From Desulfobacteraceae bacterium (lineage in GTDB: Bacteria; Desulfobacterota; DSM-4660; Desulfatiglandales; Desulfatiglandaceae): a DNA stretch of 12,306 nucleotides. Below are positions 874-11,024 of this stretch, piece after piece (position 1 is the stretch's first letter; each line of letters starts with the position of its first letter). Both the position numbers and the translations under genes were made by a program. Location of the stretch: positions 1 through 12,306 of the forward strand of contig JAUUWD010000017.1 in NCBI GenBank assembly GCA_030589225.1, read 5' to 3'. A model generated the notes under the pieces. The model was given only the letters and a program-made list of their open reading frames with translations. It did no database searches and was not told the origin of the DNA.

Positions 874-1293
874 TCAGGCCGCTTGTTTCAAGGCAGATGG
901 CCCGAGGGACTTAATCTGCTCAGTAAATTCTCTTGCAATCTCAGCAAACAGTGTGCCTTCTGCCGAGGAGACCCATTCAAGACGAAGTCGCGTAAGGTCA
1001 ATGCCAAGTATCTTGATCAGTTCCTGGGTCAATTTAAACATCCTTTCGGCCTTTACATTACCATCCAGGTAATGGCAGTCGCCTATGTGTCACCCGGCCA
1101 CCAACACACCGTCAGCACCCATTTGAAATGCTTTGAGAATGAAATTGGAGTTAACCCGACCAGAACACATCACCCGGATAATACGCATATTCGGCGGATA
1201 TTGAAAACGGCTAACGCCTGCAAGATCAGCAGCAGAATACGCGCACCAGTTACAGGCAAAAACCACTATCTTTGGACTAAATTTATCATTCAT
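874..1293 (-). CDS. mvhD: MvhD/FlpD-type electron-transfer subunit, selenoprotein (Sec at residue 68)
   Basis: This is a 139-residue protein if the in-frame TGA at 1090-1092 is read as selenocysteine; otherwise it stops after 67 residues. It starts at ATG 1293, with AGGAG about 8 nt upstream. The first half has the MvhD motifs: C14-Asn-Trp-C17, a Ser-Arg-Phe-Gln-Tyr-Pro-Pro stretch and Val-Met-C43-Ser-Gly-Arg. The TGA falls in Val-Ala-Gly-U68-His-Ile-Gly-Asp-C73-His-Tyr-Leu, where homologues have Cys. The second half continues without a break through Gly-Asn-Val-Lys-Ala and Leu-Glu-Trp-Val-Ser-Ser-Ala-Glu-Gly to a terminal TGA at 874-876. The total length is normal for the family. MvhD carries a [2Fe-2S] cluster and shuttles electrons to HdrA. 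Selenocysteine versions (VhuD) are known in Methanococcales, and Sec forms are reported from deltaproteobacteria. A hairpin correctly placed for SECIS supports recoding. Two independent accidents, a nonsense mutation exactly at the conserved Cys and an intact downstream frame, are a poor alternative. Confidence 0.9.
1056..1074 (-). promoter_or_regulatory. SECIS-like hairpin of mvhD
   Basis: On the coding strand the TGA (1092-1090) is followed by 15 nt and then a perfect 7-bp stem, CATTACC pairing with GGTAATG, closed by the 5-nt loop TGGAT. The loop begins 23 nt after the TGA and has G at its second and third positions. Bacterial SECIS elements are small stem-loops inside the coding region just after the UGA, with a G near the start of the apical loop that SelB recognises. 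The geometry fits. SelB binding itself is inferred. Confidence 0.75.
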
Positions 1294-1646: not shown

Positions 1647-4600
1647 TCAGCTTAATGCCGCTGCCACTATGCTCAACACCTCTTGGTCGTCGTAATGGAA
1701 AATGGATGCCGCTCCCGTCGGGCAGGCCACAGCGCAGGACCCACATCCCTTACAGAGGGCTGCTTGAACATTGGCCACTGTCTTGTTATCCTCACGTTCC
1801 ACAAGAGCAATGGCGCCGTATGGGCAGGCCTCTTCGCATATGCCGCAGCCCCGGCACATAATTTCATTTACATGGGAAACAACACCCTCAACCATGAGGT
1901 TTTCCTTGGAGAGCACAACGGATGCCCTGGAAGCCGCTGCTTTTGCCTGCGCGATGCTTTCTTCAATTGGCTTTGGAAAATGGGCCATACCGGCAAGGAA
2001 GGTTCCTTCTGTGGCGAATTCAACAGGTCTGAGTTTCGCATGGGCCTCCATGAAAAAACCATCTTCATTCAAGGGCAGCTTATACACCTGTGCCAGGGGT
2101 TCATTGTTACGCGGCACAATTGCGGACGCCAATACCACGATATCAGGTTTAATAGCGATATCCCTGCCCAGAATATTATCCTTGACTATAACTGCAATTC
2201 CTTCGTCACTTTTATCAACCTGCGGTTTTTGTTCAAGGTCATACCTGATAAAAATAACGCCCTGTCTTCTAGCTTCAGCGTAAAGCGCTTCTCGTTGGCC
2301 ATAAGTACGAATATCCCTATAAAGGATATATATAGCCATTTCCGGGTTCATTTCTTTAAGCTTTAAGGCCGATTTGACCGAATGAGTGCAACAGACCTTT
2401 GAGCAATATGGCCTTTCCGGTTCTCTTGACCCAACGCCCTGGATAAAGACAGCGGACTTTGCCCCAGAGACTATCTCGTCTCCGTTCCTGACGGCGGTAT
2501 CCAGTTCCAGGTGAGTCATTACCCTGTCATCTTCACCATACAGGTATTCCGTGGGCCTATGCTCTTCAGCGCCAACGGCTATCACCACCGCGCCGTGTTT
2601 CACGGATACATCGGTGCCGTTTTGTGAAATAGTAGTTTCAAAATTACCCACGAATCCCTCGGCCTCTTTGACGGTGGATTCAGTATAGATATCGATCATG
2701 GCATGGTCTTTCACCTTTTTAATCATCTCTTTTATATGGCTGGAAATTTCATCTCCCCTCCAGGTGTCAAGCAGATTCAAGGCATTGCCGCCCAGTTCAT
2801 AGGATTGCTCCACCAGATAGGTGTGAAAACCCTGATCTGCAAGGCCGAGGGCCGCTGTCATCCCGGTGATACCGCCTCCGATCACAAGGGCTTTATCGTT
2901 CACTGATATGGTTGGTTGGGGTAACGGCCTTATGAGTTGAGCCCTGGCAACCGCCATGCGCACCAGGTCCTGCGCTTTTTGTGTTGCCTCCTCTTTTTCT
3001 TTGCTATGGACCCAGGAACACTGATTTCGAATGTTAGCCATTTCAAATAAGTATTTATTCAGACCCGCATCTCTTAGTGTCTCCTGAAACAATGCCTCAT
3101 GCGTTCTGGGAGTGCAGGCCGCGACAACGACCCGATTCAAATTCTCCCGTTCAATTGCCTCTTTCATCTTATCCTGGGTATCTTGGGAACAGGTAAAGAG
3201 ATTCTCCTCTACATAGATAACACCAGGGAGTGTGCGTGCGTATTCACCAACTTTCGGAACGTCCACTATCCCTCCGATATTAGTGCCGCAGTTACAAACA
3301 AAAACGCCGATTCGAGGTTCTTCAGAAGAGACGTCCTTTTCTTGCGGGTAGGTCTTTTCCTTGACAAGTGAGCCCCGAACGTCAGAAAGGTCTGCCATTG
3401 CTTCGCAGGCGGCCGCACTGGCCTCCATGACCGAATAGGGGATATCTTTCGGTTCCTGAAAGCCTCCACACACATAGATGCCATTGCGGGAGGTTTCGAC
3501 AGGGTTAAAGACCCCGGTTTGAACAAAGTTGTCCTCATCTAATTTGATTTCCAGTTGATCGGCAGTATTAATTAGGGCTTCAGGCGTTTCCATGCCTACT
3601 GACAACACGACCATGTTAAATGTTTCTACTTGAATGTCCCCATTTTCACTAACATATTTAAGCACCAGATCATGGGCTTTTGGGTCCTCTTCAATGGAAT
3701 GAATCCTGGTGCGGACAAACCTGACCCCTTGTTCATCCCTGGCCCGCTCATAATATTTCTCGAAATCCTTGCCATAGGTCCTCATATCCATAAAGAATAT
3801 GGCTGCGTCCAGGTTATGTCCTGCATGCTCTTTTGCGATCACGGCCTCCTTAACTGCATACATGCAACAGACAGAGGAGCAATAGGAGTGGTCACACTGG
3901 TTGATATCCCTGGAGCCAACGCACTGGATGAAGGCAATCTTTTGCGGTTCTTTTCTATCTGAAGGCCTCAATAAATGGCCCTGAAATGGTCCTGTGGCGC
4001 TAAGGATGCGCTCGAACTCTATGCTAGTCACCACATTCGGGTATGCAGAATATTGATATGTGTCATATCGGCTGGGATCAAAGGGCTTAAAACCGGGAGC
4101 CAGTATCACAGAACCCACGTCAATTGATAAAGTTTTTTCCTGCTCAGCGTGGGTCTCAATCGTAACGGCATGGGCCTGACAGGCTTTCACGCACTCGTAG
4201 CATTCACAACATCCCCCGCAGTTGAGGCAACGGCCTGCTTCTTTCTTGGCCAACTCCTCATCAACAGGGAGAGCAATCTCTTCAAACCCTGAATGCCTTT
4301 TCTCAACAGGCAGGATTGGAACCTCCAGTCTCTTCTTTACAGGAGCATCTTCCGGAATTTCTACCCAGTTTGTCCCTACTGGTGGCTCCTCTTGCCATTC
4401 GGTGGGCAGTTCTTCACCTCGCAAGTATTTGGCCATGTATTTGGCTGCCTTTTTGCCAGCCTCAACCGCCTCAATAACAGTTGCTGAACCCGTAATCACA
4501 TCACCGCCAGCGAATATTCCCGGCTTATTGGTCTGTAATGTCTCGGGATTGACCACAAGTAAGTTCCACTTGGAAACTTCCAGACCTGAAAAATCTTCCC

Positions 4601-6107
4601 CTAAGAAATCAAGATCCGGTTCCTGTCCTACGGAAGAGATAACATGATCTGCTTCAATGAAAAACTCTGAACCTTCAATAGGAATAAATTTTCGCCTGCC
4701 TGTGGTATCGGGTTCGGTCAGGCGCGTGCGGGAACACTCGACGCCAACCACCTTGCCGTTTTCAATGACAATTCTTTGGGGGGCTACGTGAAAATGGATC
4801 TTTGCTCCTTCGCTTTCAACTTCCTTTTTTTCTTCAGAATCAGCCGGCATTTCTGCCAGAGAAAAAGGATCTATCATATTGACGCTTTCAGCGCCCAATC
4901 GAAAAGCCACCCGGGTGGTATCCATACCGGAATGGCCTACTCCGAAAACAACAACCTTACCTTCAAGTTTCTTCCGGCGCCCCAGTTGAACTTCTCTCAT
5001 AAAAGTAACTACATGGGAGAAGCCTTCGGTGTGCTCTTCGCCTGGTATTCCAAGCTTCAGGCCCTTCCAGGCCCCGGCGGCCAAGAAAATCGCCTTGGCG
5101 CCATGTTTCTGGAGCTCTTCAATTGTGAGATCCTTGCCAATGGCCGTATTTGTATGAATTTCTATGCCGTAGCGTTTGAGGTTTTCTATCTCTTCGTCCA
5201 GGACAGACCCCGGAAGGCGGTGCTCAGGGATGCCATATCGCATCATACCGCCGGTCTCGGGCATAGCCTCATAAACACTCACCTGATACCCTTCAAGAGC
5301 AAGAAAATAGGCAGCAGTGAGACCAGCAGGGCCTGATCCTATGATGGCCACCATTTCATCCATGGACGTTATTTCGGGGACAGGGATTTCACTAAGTTTT
5401 ACATGGTCAGCAGCGACCTTTTTAAGCTCCCGGATCGAAATCGCCTCATCTACTTCGAGACGGCGGCAGCTTTTTTCGCAGGGACGGGGACAGACACGAC
5501 CGAGTACGCCAGGAAAGGGGAGATCCCGCATGATGATTTCGATAGCTTCCCTGTACTTGCTTTCCTTTACCATCTGCACATAACCCTGCACATTCAGATT
5601 AGCCGGGCAGGCCATAGTGCATGGTGCTGTGTCGAGTTTCCCTATGGCGAAGCTGCCTGGAATAGCCTGGGCGTAAGGTTTGTAAGCGGCCTTCCTATCA
5701 TTCAAGCCCTGATCGTATTCACTCGGCAATGCGACTGGGCATACCTCCACACAATCGCCACAGGCTGTGCATATATCAGGATCTATATATCTTGGGGTCT
5801 TGTTGAACGTGACCCGGAAATTTCCTTGCTCACCCTCGATTTTTTCAACAACTGAACATGTATGGAGTTCGATATTGATGTGCCGGCCGACCTCGACCAG
5901 TTTGGGCGAGACAATTCACATGGCACAGTCATTGGTTGGAAAAGTCTTGTCCAGTTGGGACATGACACCACCAATGGCCGGAGATTTTTCCACGAGATGA
6001 ACATAAAAGCCGGAATCTGCCAAATCCAAGGCCGCCTGCATGCCTGCGATGCCACCGCCTACAACCATCACAGCACCCTGGACGTTTTGAGCTGCATCAA
6101 CTTTCAT
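1647..6107 (-). CDS. hdrA: Double HdrA-type flavoprotein with inserted NfnB/GltD-like domain, selenoprotein (Sec at residue 64)
   Basis: This is a 1486-residue protein, reading the in-frame TGA at 5916-5918 as Sec. It starts at ATG 6107 with AGGGG about 7 nt upstream. Residues 12-64 are an FAD-binding segment (G17-G-G-I-A-G22) ending in Asp-C61-Ala-Met-U64. The HdrA signature [12 protein letters not shown] follows, then a four-Cys cluster at 113, 116, 119 and 123. Residues about 160-565 resemble the GltD/NfnB NAD(P)H-FAD oxidoreductase, with GSGPAG at 257-262 and a second nucleotide fold at about 389-394. A seven-Cys cluster region spans 627-643, and the HdrA Cys-Cys site includes C743, C747 and C748. 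A second HdrA unit starts near 931, with FAD motif 1077-1082, C1235, C1239 and C1240, and two ferredoxin clusters at 1418-1428 and 1452-1462. HdrA uses FAD to bifurcate or confurcate electrons; the insert suggests NAD(P)H as a partner. The protein is cytoplasmic, with no signal peptide. A caller ignoring Sec would begin it wrongly at GTG 5750, inside the first cluster motif. Confidence 0.9.
5883..5900 (-). promoter_or_regulatory. Candidate SECIS hairpin of hdrA
   Basis: Starting 16 nt after the TGA (5918-5916), CTGGTC can pair with GGCCGG (four Watson-Crick and two G-U pairs) around the 6-nt loop GAGGTC, which starts with G 22 nt after the TGA. The spacing nearly equals that of the mvhD hairpin. 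A competing fold exists: CTCGCCC at +6 to +12 can pair with GGTCGAG at +18 to +24 with one mismatch and loop AAACT, but it lacks a loop G. The element is therefore less certain than the one in mvhD. Confidence 0.5.
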
Positions 6108-6930: not shown

Positions 6931-9021
6931 ATGAAGAGAGGGCATAAGGTTATGAAAAGAAAAAACCTCAGTGAAGAACAGAAAGAATATCAAGCTCTCC
7001 TCCAGAGTGTTACCGATTATGTGATCGCCGTCAACAGAAACTATCAGATCATTATGGCCAACGACCTTTTCATCAATAAACTGGGCGCACGTTCTGAGGG
7101 CTTTTGCTACAAGGCCTGGAAAAACAGAGATGATAAATGTGATGATTGTTTGGTGGAAAAATCTTTTCGAGATGGCCGGGTTCACCAGAATGAAGAGGCA
7201 ATTGTGCTGAAGGATGGCAGAATTGCACAAATGCTCATTAAATCAACGCCGGTAAAAGATGATCAAGGGAAGATTGTCTATGTCCTGGAAGCGGCCACTG
7301 ACATCACAGAAAAGAAACGTCTTCAACAAGAACTAAAAAGCGTAAAAGGAAATCTGGAGAAAATAATAGATGCGCGTCTAAACCATCTGCAAAAATCCGA
7401 AGAGAAATATCGAACTATATTTGAGCGTTCCCGGGACGCGCTTATACTTACTGATTCCAATGGCAAAATCATGGAGATCAACCGGGCAGGGGTTGAGATA
7501 TTGGGATATAGAAACAAAGAGGATCTATTGGATCTGACATCGGTAAAGGAACTCTTTAAAGATCCTGAAGAGTTCTACCAATTTCAGAAGCAGGCTTTTG
7601 GAGAGGGCGTAGTCACAGAGTTTGAAGTACGCCTTGTGGGGGGGAAAAGCAGGTCATTTGATGCACTGATCACATCGAATGTGATTTTGGATTTAATCGG
7701 ACGGATTATCGGCTATGTGATCATCATAAGGGACATCACAAAAAGAAAGAAGGCACAGCAGCAGATAGAGATGCGAAACACCAGGCTTGCCATCCTGAAT
7801 GCCATCTCCATGACCATAAGTAACAGTCTGGATCTAAATGAAGTGCTTAACAGCACCATTGATAAGATCCGAGAACTCCTCGAGTCAGACAGCGTCAGAA
7901 TCTATCTTCTTGACGGGAAGCGAAATGTTCTCAATCTGGCAGCCCATAAGGGGCTTTCATCTGAATTCATTTCAAAGAGCCATATAAGACACCGTGAAGT
8001 GGGGGCAGGATTCCTGGGCCAGGCCGTTCTTGCGTGTGAAACCAGGGTTGTTGACAATATAGAGGCATTCGAAGATTCTTACGCGGTTTTAATGGTAATG
8101 GAATGTGTTGACTCGACTGCTTTCATACGAGTTGTCTCGAATGGGCAGCCGCTATGGGTAATGGTGGTGTCCAGCTATTCAGGTTTCAAGTTTTCAGCCA
8201 ATTATGTGGATTTTTTGACGGCTATCGGCAATCAGATAGGAGTTGCTGTAGATAATGCAAATCTGTATGAGAATCTTAAGAGAGCCTACCAGAAACTCAA
8301 GGAGGCCCAAGAGCAGGTCATTCGGACTGAAAAGCTGGCTTCACTGGGCAAATTGGCCGCTACTGTTGCCCATGAGATCAATAATCCGCTTGCTGCGGTT
8401 CTCACCTATACCAGGTTAATGATGAAACTCATGAGCCGGGGTCGGTTCACGCAGGAAAGACTTGAAGACATTGCTCGATATTTAACAATCATGGAATCAG
8501 AGACAGCCAGGTGCGGAGAAATCGTAAAAAACCTTCTGGCTTTTTCTCGTCAGCCTAAAATCACCATGGAAACCAGCAGCATCGAAGAACTTATTGAAAA
8601 GACACTGGTCCTTATTTCTCATGACCTGGAAATGAAAAATATCCAACTGGTAAAGGAAATTGAACCGGATTTGCCCAAAATCAAATGTAGTTCCAGGCAC
8701 ATTCAGCAGGCCTTACTGAACCTCCTGAGCAACGCCTCAGAGGCCATGACAGAAGGAGGCACCCTGACTGTGACAGCCAAACGTTCCAAAAGCGATGGTT
8801 TTGTGGAGGCTGTTATTTCCGATACTGGCTGCGGCATTTCCGAAGAAGACTTGAAGAATATTTTTGAGCCTTTTTTCACCACCAAGGAAGAGGGCAGGGG
8901 AGTTGGTCTCGGCCTTTCAGTAGTTCACGGAATTATCACCAGGCACAATGGTTCCATAGAAATTGAAAGTAAACCAGATGAGGGAAGCACTTTTAAGGTT
9001 CGGCTGCCCACGGTTCGATAA
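6931..9021 (+). CDS. Soluble PAS-PAS-GAF sensor histidine kinase
   Basis: The protein has 696 residues and no membrane segment, so it senses a cytoplasmic signal. PAS 1 covers about 20-115 and contains an unusual C59-x10-C70-x2-C73 trio that could hold a metal, a cluster or a redox switch. A helical linker follows at about 115-155, then PAS 2 at about 160-275, a GAF domain at about 285-440, and a short coiled linker. The HisKA domain has the phospho-acceptor H481 in Val-Ala-His-Glu-Ile-Asn-Asn-Pro-Leu. The HATPase domain has its N box at N601, G1 Asp-Thr-Gly-Cys-Gly at 631-635, the F box Phe-Glu-Pro-Phe-Phe and G2 Gly-Val-Gly-Leu-Gly-Leu. The NtrB-like kinase core matches the sigma-54 regulator encoded 83 nt downstream, its presumed phosphotransfer partner. 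ATG 6952 is an equally good or better start, with GAGAGGG about 9 nt upstream; ATG 6931 has no clear site. Confidence 0.93.
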
Positions 9022-9104
9022 AGGGTGATCTTTAAATAGAACCCCCAAATGTTTCTCTGTACGTGTTTACAAGTGAACCTATATTATAAGTCACGGAGGG
9101 ATGG

Positions 9105-10457
9105 ATGATGACAAAAATGCCTCGTATTCTTGTCGTTGATGACGAAGCGGCCATGAGACAATCTCTTAAGGACTGGTTGATGGAGGATGACTATGAGGTT
9201 GACCTGGCAGCAAGCGGGGAAGATGCCATTTCCATGGCCCGGGATAGAAGCTGGGATATAATTCTACTGGATCTCAAAATGCCGGGAATGGATGGTCTGG
9301 AAACCATGAGCAGGCTTAAGAAAATGATTCCGGAGACTGAGATACTCATGATGACGGCCTATGGTTCCATAGATACAGCAGTTCAGGCCATGAAAGAAGG
9401 GGCTTTTGATTACCTGGTCAAGCCTTTTGACCCAGACGAAATAGATATGCTGATCAAAAAAATTGTAGCACACAAGGAACTGGTTCTTGAGAATATCCTG
9501 CTGCGTAAGAAACTGGCGGAGAGACGCCAGTATGATGAGATTATCGGGAAAGGCGATGCTATGCAGGAGGTTTTTGATTTGATTTCCCGTGTGGCCCGGG
9601 CCGATTCTACGGTCCTTATTACCGGTGAAAGCGGCACAGGGAAAGAACTGATCGCCCAGGCCATCCACGGAAACAGCAACCGCTGTTATATGCCATTTAT
9701 TGCAGTAAGTTGCGGGGCATTACCTGATTCCCTGTTGGAAAGCGAACTTTTCGGTTATGTAAAAGGGGCCTTTACCGGTGCAGAAAATTCAAAGAAGGGC
9801 CGTTTTGAGATGGCCAACAAAGGCACCCTTTTCCTTGATGAAATCGGAGACATCAGCCTGAAAACGCAGGTTGATCTTTTGAGGGTCTTACAGCAAAGGG
9901 AACTCATGCGTCTGGGGAGTGAAGAGGTCATTAAGGTTGATGTTCGCATACTGGCAGCCACTAATCGTGACTTACAAAAGGCTATTAAAGAAAACCGATT
10001 TCGTGAGGATCTATACTATCGCCTGAATGTGATCTCTATCCACATCCCCCCTTTAAGAGAGCGAAAGGAGGATATCCCTCTACTTGTAAAGGCATTTATC
10101 GAGAAGTATTGTCTGGAGATGAATAAAGAAGTTGTGAAGATAGCCCCTTCCGCCCTTAAGCTACTAACAGGTTATGACTGGCCAGGAAATGTGAGGGAAT
10201 TGGAAAACGTCATTGAAAGGGCGCTTGTGATCGGCTCTGGTAAGAAAATCGTATCAGAGGATCTTCCCTTTTCCCGAAAAGAGATTGAACCTTATGAGTT
10301 TCCCAAGTCATTAAAAATGATGGAAAAAATGCATATTGAAAGAATTTTGGACAAAAGTGATTGGAATATCAGTCGGGCAGCTCGCGAACTGGATATCGAT
10401 CGACAGACCCTCTACAATAAAATAGAAAAATATCAGATCAGAAGGGGGCAGGCTTAA
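9105..10457 (+). CDS. Sigma-54-dependent NtrC-family response regulator
   Basis: The protein has 450 residues in the usual three parts. The receiver domain (about 6-120) has acidic D12-D13, phospho-acceptor D56 (Leu-Leu-Asp-Leu-Lys-Met-Pro-Gly), T84 and K106 in Val-Lys-Pro-Phe. The AAA+ domain (about 143-375) has Walker A GESGTGKE at 174-181, the sigma-54-contacting GAFTGA loop at 221-226, and Walker B Gly-Thr-Leu-Phe-Leu-Asp-Glu from 240. A Fis-type helix-turn-helix lies at about 418-442. All key residues are present, so it should activate sigma-54 promoters after phosphorylation by the upstream kinase. GGAGGG at 9095-9100 favours the second Met (ATG 9108) slightly over ATG 9105; ATG 9101 is out of frame. 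A sigma-54 promoter at 11239 is the obvious local target. Confidence 0.96.
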   Translation: MMTKMPRILVVDDEAAMRQSLKDWLMEDDYEVDLAASGEDAISMARDRSWDIILLDLKMPGMDGLETMSRLKKMIPETEILMMTAYGSIDTAVQAMKEGAFDYLVKPFDPDEIDMLIKKIVAHKELVLENILLRKKLAERRQYDEIIGKGDAMQEVFDLISRVARADSTVLITGESGTGKELIAQAIHGNSNRCYMPFIAVSCGALPDSLLESELFGYVKGAFTGAENSKKGRFEMANKGTLFLDEIGDISLKTQVDLLRVLQQRELMRLGSEEVIKVDVRILAATNRDLQKAIKENRFREDLYYRLNVISIHIPPLRERKEDIPLLVKAFIEKYCLEMNKEVVKIAPSALKLLTGYDWPGNVRELENVIERALVIGSGKKIVSEDLPFSRKEIEPYEFPKSLKMMEKMHIERILDKSDWNISRAARELDIDRQTLYNKIEKYQIRRGQA

Positions 10458-10463
10458 ATCGAT

Positions 10464-11024
10464 TTGTCAAATTGCATCACTATTTGCCCCATCGGGGTTG
10501 TTGAGGAAAATTTTCTTGCCCGTATCACAAAGTGTATTGAAAAACACCACGATCTCGTGTGCAAGATTTCCCCAGGAATGGAAAAGCCCAACTACGCTTA
10601 CGATGAACGGCGGGGCCAGTACAATTCAAAACTGATCCTAAAACATCTGATAAAATGTTGCCCTCAAGATACCCTAAGATTCATGGCGGTTACACATGTG
10701 GACCTGTATGTGCCAATCCTTAAATTTGTATTTGGATTGGCTCAGATGGAAGGTCAATGCGCTGTCATCTCAATACACCGGCTTTGTCCGCAATTCTACA
10801 ATCTGCCGCCAGATCCCGATCTTTTAATGGCGCGCGTGGAAAAAACCGTGTTGCACGAACTGGGGCACAGCCTTGGTCTAACCCACTGCCGAGATCGACG
10901 TTGTGTTATGTACTCTTCCACTCGGATTGAAGATACGGATTTTAAGCGATCAGACTATTGTCCCACCTGTTTTGAACTTTTCAGGTGGCGCCTTGATAAA
11001 TGCCTCACTAATGCTCATACTTGA
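10464..11024 (+). CDS. amzA: Archaemetzincin-like zinc metalloprotease (peptidase family M54)
   Basis: The protein has 186 residues. The active-site motif is complete: H131-Glu-Leu-Gly-H135-x2-Gly-x2-H141 with catalytic E132. It is followed by C142-x4-C147-Val-Met149 and, 16 residues on, C166-x2-C169, the extra cysteines that set archaemetzincins apart and bind a second structural zinc. The N-terminus (Ile-Thr-Ile-Cys-Pro-Ile-Gly) matches the first family strand. There is no signal peptide, so it is cytoplasmic; substrates of bacterial members are unknown to me. The start is TTG 10464, in the same frame as and six bases after the regulator's TAA. No in-frame ATG precedes the conserved N-terminal strand, and GGGGG at 10444-10448 is the only nearby SD, unusually far at about 15 nt. 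Translation is therefore probably coupled to the regulator gene. Its link to the two-component system is inferred from position only. Confidence 0.88.
   Translation: MSNCITICPIGVVEENFLARITKCIEKHHDLVCKISPGMEKPNYAYDERRGQYNSKLILKHLIKCCPQDTLRFMAVTHVDLYVPILKFVFGLAQMEGQCAVISIHRLCPQFYNLPPDPDLLMARVEKTVLHELGHSLGLTHCRDRRCVMYSSTRIEDTDFKRSDYCPTCFELFRWRLDKCLTNAHT

Follow-up and report, generated by a model that had tools for sequence, protein, structure and literature searches.

A probable selenocysteine codon in an HdrL-type hdrA gene of a Desulfobacteraceae bacterium and its relation to the neighbouring mvhD gene

Genes and domains at the hdrL locus

The window, i.e., the whole analysed stretch of 12,306 nucleotides (contig JAUUWD010000017.1 of the Desulfobacteraceae assembly GCA_030589225.1), carries on its minus strand an hdrL-type hdrA gene, an adjoining mvhD gene and, next downstream, a gene for an HdrD-like Fe-S protein (Table 1). 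In the frame opened by ATG 6107 (minus strand), codon 64 was a TGA (5918-5916) directly following Asp-Cys-Ala-Met, after which the frame stayed open for 1422 codons and ended at the TGA at 1649-1647. The 63 codons preceding the internal TGA and the 1422 open codons following it had been claimed in the first-pass annotation, and both matched when the sequence was reread. The ORF list did start at GTG 5750, as stated there, and the resulting loss was 119 residues (1-119) rather than the 120 given. With GTG 5750 as the start, the first residue would be V120, which lies within the ferredoxin motif C113-x2-C116-x2-C119-x3-C123, so that this motif would be broken; mechanical ORF calling thus shortens hdrL by 119 residues, and the gene model is corrected here. 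The codons upstream of the TGA (-56 to -1) looked purified, with a dN of 0.024 and a dS of 0.39 in comparison to the homologue L032, and a dN range of 0.024-0.10 in comparison to six relatives (dS was saturated in three of them).

Table 1. Coordinates of the features discussed in the text.
Feature	Coordinates	Strand	Basis and remarks
hdrL-type hdrA gene (HdrA N part + GltD + HdrA C part + second HdrA module)	1647..6107	-	1486 residues, predicted Sec at 64
HdrA N-terminal part, GxGxxG FAD-binding segment + ferredoxin motif C113-C123	5643..6107	-	domain searches, structure alignment
Predicted Sec codon 64 of hdrL, TGA, context C-A-M-U	5916..5918	-	homologue codons; aligned with residue 197 of 5odc_A
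Predicted bacterial SECIS hairpin CUGGUCG-AGGU-CGGCCGG	5883..5900	-	7 bp, apical loop 22 nt after UGA
GltD-like NAD(P)H-oxidoreductase insert (Fer4_20 + Pyr_redox_2)	4413..5630	-	domain searches
First module, HdrA C-terminal part	3357..4232	-	NF041778 match, residues 626-917
Second HdrA-like module, C-terminal ferredoxin motifs	1650..3314	-	domain searches
mvhD (FlpD family), second predicted selenoprotein gene of the window	874..1293	-	139 residues; FlpD match, TGA
Predicted Sec codon 68 of mvhD, TGA, in G-U-H-I-G-D-C	1090..1092	-	frame reading
SECIS-like hairpin of mvhD, CAUUACC-UGGAU-GGUAAUG	1056..1074	-	loop 22 nt after UGA, -7.3 kcal/mol
HdrD-like Fe-S protein (Fer4 + CCG), next gene after mvhD, truncated at the contig end	3..791	-	profile search

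The domain searches placed Fer4_20 at residues 160-237 of the product, Pyr_redox_2 at 253-551, HdrA2 at 932-1162 and 4Fe-4S motifs at approximately 1412-1466. The HdrA profiles NF040770 (956 bits, cut-off 1100) and NF041778 (677 bits, cut-off 1400) scored under their curated whole-protein cut-offs, which places the product outside those strict equivalogs; our guess is that the fusion and bacterial divergence lower the scores. Glutamate-synthase small-subunit models matched the GltD insert, all under their own cut-offs. The first 142 residues matched archaeal HdrA structures, without gaps in the case of 8rvv_A and 5odc_A. In the alignment to HdrA that the first-pass annotation had proposed as a check, residues 12-142 corresponded to residues 145-275 of 5odc_A (gap-free, E 6e-47), and residue 64 fell on Cys 197. 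For the Cys at 197, no role was found in the accessible parts of the papers on HdrA structures, and the interpretation therefore says nothing about the ligation of a cluster or flavin. By eye, the second HdrA module had no C-x2-C/U motif at the corresponding place. The closest named records, among the matches listed, were metagenome-assembled genomes assigned to Desulfobacteraceae or to other Desulfobacterales (85% for the best), which makes the host most probably a member of this group. The earlier identification of the gene as hdrA was correct as to the HdrA family and too narrow as a plain hdrA, since the product is an HdrA–GltD–HdrA fusion. This type is called HdrL in Desulfobacterium autotrophicum, and both the type and its use of selenium are already known.

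The mvhD gene adjoins hdrL and gave a full-length FlpD match (901-1269) containing one TGA. It was absent from the ORF list made at 80 aa.

The in-frame TGA, its hairpin and the selenium machinery

Homologous codons were collected by a translated search of 140 loci (L001-L140), which returned 131 matches and, with one row per identical context, 121 distinct contexts; matches were kept when they started by residue 58 and ended at or after residue 70. The candidates for these loci came from six peptide patterns, and the best 80 of 568 relatives were kept. The codon corresponding to codon 64 was TGA in 74 contexts, TGC in 34 and TGT in 13, a 74:47 division that is not a frequency in nature, since one of the patterns (TNDCAMCI) demands Cys at this codon. 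Homologues with neither Cys nor Sec at residue 64, named in the first-pass annotation as evidence against its claim, did not occur (0/121). The own genome held five hdrA-type genes with exactly one TGA each, alongside others free of stops, and the TGA stood at the same place in those copies whose sequences were read. Many HdrL-type genes of these bacteria would thus carry Sec.

A bacterial SECIS search had been suggested along with the Sec assignment. The rule applied, as given in the accessible part of its source, allows a loop of 3-9 nt with a G among its first two nucleotides, a stem of 4-16 bp, a distance of 16-37 nt after the UGA and a minimum free energy of -7.5 kcal/mol or lower. The hairpin of the window fits this rule (7 bp, AGGU loop, 22 nt, -9.1 kcal/mol). 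A model hairpin at -7.5 kcal/mol or better was found in 70 of the 74 TGA contexts, the other four missing the threshold, in contrast to 9 of the 47 Cys contexts. Among 2000 synonymous re-codings of the window sequence, 0.95% reached -9.1 kcal/mol and 4% passed the threshold. When the 59-nt segment was simply folded as a whole, its stability did not exceed that of dinucleotide-shuffled sequences (z -0.03), and the case for the hairpin therefore depends on comparison. Rfam models at gathering scores gave no match in the window.

The stronger evidence for a SECIS element is synonymous codon choice and not fold energy. In the rows with the LVE motif (65/74 Sec and 39/47 Cys), the probability of two copies having the same codon at positions +5 to +11 was 0.935 for Sec (n=65) and 0.547 for Cys (n=39), in comparison to 0.468 and 0.512, respectively, over 63 other codons. 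Codons +5 to +11 were the top of 73 seven-codon windows in the Sec rows and lay outside the top four in the Cys rows. The Val at +7 was encoded by GTC in 64/65 Sec rows versus 4/39 Cys rows. The freezing of the hairpin codons at synonymous sites suggests that readthrough is under selection. Two registers of the hairpin were distinguished. With G-U pairs allowed, all seven pairs of the 22-nt form were present in 62 of the 74 TGA contexts (six pairs in a further three), and all seven pairs of the 27-nt form (GGAUGUC-GGUC-GACAUCC type) were present in nine; the corresponding numbers for the Cys contexts were 1/47 and 0/47. The own genome holds both registers by eye (L007, L008 and L010 versus L009 and L011). 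In one TGA copy (L103:9827), the best hairpin took a third form, with a 5-nt GGUCG loop located 27 nt after the UGA. The residue at +9 was Val (GTC) in 63/65 Sec rows and Cys in 26/39 Cys rows, a difference that may reflect a constraint of the hairpin on the protein.

The TGA of mvhD was less clear by the energy rule. At its predicted Sec position, the loci L001-L140 gave 28 TGA, 24 TGC and 12 TGT codons (two partial matches excluded), and in the own genome a TGA was present in three of nine FlpD matches. None of the 28 TGA copies had a hairpin reaching -7.5 kcal/mol and 15 reached -7.0 kcal/mol, while one of the 36 Cys copies reached both values. The strict threshold thus failed for mvhD, the hairpin of the window falling narrowly short of it at -7.3 kcal/mol. 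The stem AUUACC/GGUAAU recurs after the mvhD TGA. As a separate observation, two in-frame TGA codons were found in 4 of 103 mvhD matches of eight relatives (L156, L157, L158 and L159), at the sites CTW-TGA-AYAAADLAG (CNWC in the mvhD of the window) and GG-TGA-HLG; these genes possibly encode a double-Sec MvhD.

The own genome contained a tRNA-Sec (74.7 bits, anticodon TCA, above the cut-off and so named by ARAGORN), SelA (623.5 bits) and SelD (373 bits, with its own in-frame TGA), the latter two above the curated cut-offs. Weak matches were widespread in 14 control genomes, of which five were above the cut-off for tRNA-Sec, one for SelA and two for SelD. No SelB was above the cut-off in the own assembly (65.67% complete) or in two genomes of the same genus (87% and 63%); in total, SelB exceeded the cut-off in 32 of the 41 genomes searched, the own genome being among the 41. 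The SelB domain PF09107 was absent from 7 of 10 genomes picked mostly for lacking SelB, including the own genome and both of the same genus. A SelB lead at the end of contig C133 was rejected, its reading frame being what we take to be the start of EF-Tu. A second tRNA-Sec match above the cut-off (C133:420-496) was a tRNA-Trp according to ARAGORN.

Predicted Sec and Cys states in hdrA and mvhD

An hdrA protein tree was built from 108 of the 121 rows (those extending 350 residues or more beyond the codon) with the Sec and SECIS columns removed; it was made by a quick method and has some long branches. It required at least nine changes between Sec and Cys, seven of them forced by starred branches. 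Five Cys genes (L096, L117, L125, L129 and L140) nested among Sec genes, and did so in a careful 17-row tree as well, for which holding all seven Cys rows together was rejected (p-AU 7e-8). The nested Cys clade kept three to five of six hairpin codons (mean 4.2), in comparison to a mean of 2.1 for 30 other LVE[V/C]GR Cys copies; the five other LVEVGR Cys copies, which are the fairer reference, kept 1, 2, 2, 2 and 4. The clade looks like a return from Sec to Cys in which the SECIS element is decaying; from the tree alone, the direction of the change does not follow. A table in the accessible part of an earlier survey lists zero Sec-to-Cys and two Cys-to-Sec events for HdrA (PMC1794560).

In the collected loci, the hdrA gene and the next downstream mvhD had the same state in 50 of the 53 pairs (Sec/Sec in 21 and Cys/Cys in 29), an agreement of which part could come from genomes without Sec. 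The count was repeated in eight TGA-carrying relatives, where "Sec" denotes a TGA inside the match and "Cys" no stop inside the match. It covered 88/88 hdrA rows and 72/103 mvhD rows; the other 31 were checked by eye, and none was a nearer downstream neighbour on the same strand. Where mvhD was a separate gene, 47 of 50 pairs agreed (37 TGA/TGA, 10 without TGA and three discordant). Where mvhD lay in a frame longer than 500 aa, the 12 pairs comprised one Sec/Sec, six Cys/Cys and five with a TGA in hdrA and none in mvhD. The remaining hdrA rows (26/88) had no mvhD within 5.5 kb. SelB was above the cut-off in all five of these eight relatives that were searched. Fisher's p for the eight-relative pairs ignores kinship and is not taken as proof. 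A phylogeny-aware test, underpowered with its four independent pairs, found mvhD changing the same way in 2.5 of them on average and the opposite way in none (median p 0.25, not significant).

That HdrA and MvhD gain or lose Sec as a unit is suggested by these comparisons, a tentative proposal to which we give slightly less than an even chance. No description of joint hdrA/mvhD switching between Sec and Cys was found in the literature, which was covered in part. If the proposal were true, Sec at both ends of the electron step from MvhD to HdrA would tune one shared step; alternatively, whole gene sets would represent selenium-replete and selenium-free versions.

One genome (G005) held seven TGA/TGA pairs along with six pairs without TGA. 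A run of approximately 32 kb in this genome (L160:7387 to L161:19888) contained seven hdrA matches and six mvhD matches, all of them TGA-free, and could be a selenium-free set. Beside it lies a second SelB-like gene (L160:3412-5376; 303.8 bits, above the selB cut-off), adjoining a SufS-type desulfurase and an XdhC-type protein, both of which scored below their cut-offs. A higher-scoring selB is located elsewhere in the same genome.

Interpretation and relation to known systems

The pairing of Cys and TGA codons, the frozen SECIS hairpin, the presence of selA, selC and selD and the low dN upstream of the TGA all support the assignment of the hdrA TGA to Sec made in the first-pass annotation, and the TGA at 5918-5916 is very probably a selenocysteine codon. 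A true stop, caused by a nonsense mutation or a sequencing error and leaving a shorter protein from GTG 5750, would agree with the mechanical ORF list, which yields exactly that ORF. It is nevertheless very improbable, as a TGA occupies the same codon in 74/121 contexts and in five genes of the own genome, dN is low upstream of it, and GTG 5750 sits within the ferredoxin cysteine motif. Decoding of the UGA as another amino acid, via a reassigned code or a suppressor tRNA, would also suit an in-frame TGA amid an otherwise open frame; we give it even less credence. Five ORFs checked in the window had no further in-frame TGA, and hdrL itself, mvhD and the ORF at 10464-11024 all end in TGA, so that UGA still terminates genes here and a reassigned code is unlikely. 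Moreover, the partner codon encoded Cys in 47/47 non-TGA contexts, and the genome has tRNA-Sec, SelA and SelD.

A further explanation accepts the Sec and regards it as neutral, i.e., inherited without functional gain over Cys, which we consider rather unlikely. In its favour, the minimum of nine Sec/Cys changes on the tree indicates that Cys can replace Sec, and one Cys clade is nested among the Sec copies. Against it stand the synonymously frozen hairpin codons, which point to selection on readthrough rather than to a gain over Cys, and the frequently shared state of neighbouring hdrA and mvhD, which likewise shows no gain over Cys itself. The best explanation, and judging from the sequence comparisons a highly probable one, is that the gene encodes a Sec-containing HdrL in which HdrA is fused to a GltD-like domain for NAD(P)H binding and to a further HdrA module.

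For such a protein, SelB acting on the hairpin at 5900-5883 would bring Sec-tRNA-Sec to the UGA at 5918-5916, and the ribosome would continue to 1647. Sec64 would stand for the Cys of the C-x2-C motif (197 in 5odc). HdrL, the adjacent putative selenoprotein MvhD and the HdrD-like protein may form a cytoplasmic flavin-based electron-transfer complex, bifurcating or confurcating, in which electrons would pass from MvhD to the HdrA flavin and the GltD part would oxidise or form NAD(P)H.

Several known systems resemble the locus, as described in the accessible parts of the papers cited here. D. autotrophicum HRM2 has selenocysteine-containing HdrL1 and HdrL3, and four of its mvhD genes encode selenoproteins (PMC2702500). 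At the level of the described domains and gene order, the window protein is like HdrL1 and HdrL3 in the HdrA/glutamate-synthase fusion, the NADH-binding site, the Sec and the adjoining mvhD; in D. autotrophicum, dsrABC comes after HdrL1 and mvhD, and in the window it is the HdrD-like gene that follows. HdrL was thought to be unique to the D. autotrophicum genome, whereas TGA frames of similar length were frequent in relatives among the matches listed here. Sec and non-Sec Hdr paralogues of D. autotrophicum have been suggested to swap under selenium limitation (PMC2702500), and selenium-free backup copies are thus not a new idea. A Sec-containing HdrA encoded in an operon with the selenoprotein FrhD was published for Deltaproteobacteria as early as 2006 (PMC1794560). 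The locus shares with Syntrophobacter, Syntrophus and Sec-decoding archaea (PMC1794560) the Sec HdrA, several copies per genome, FrhD (MvhD) in the operon and hdrA fusions; unlike in those systems, no FrhA or FrhG was seen in the window. In Desulfococcus multivorans, an hdrA UGA with a SECIS element has been described (PMC5109826), and the HdrA Sec motif is given in the literature as CxxU. According to a 2026 review, co-located selenoprotein genes, e.g., frhA-frhD-hdrA, frequently function jointly (PMC13188914). A GltD domain is likewise inserted in the type III HdrA of methane-metabolising archaea, with an NAD(P)H reaction proposed (PMC12054007), and the window protein differs from this HdrA in the fused second HdrA module and the predicted Sec in place of Cys. 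In contrast to the window HdrL, the 5odc_A protein (HdrA of Methanothermococcus thermolithotrophicus, the organism being taken as for 5ODH) is a Cys enzyme of 654 residues, too short for the GltD insert and the second module.

The interest of the locus is in the comparative details rather than in the presence of Sec here. With a hairpin that is frozen and occurs in two registers, and with hdrA and mvhD in agreement, one can ask why two neighbouring electron carriers use selenium jointly. Divergent from hdrL, the plus strand carries at 6931-10457 a PAS/GAF histidine kinase and a sigma-54 response regulator, a pair that may have a regulatory role.
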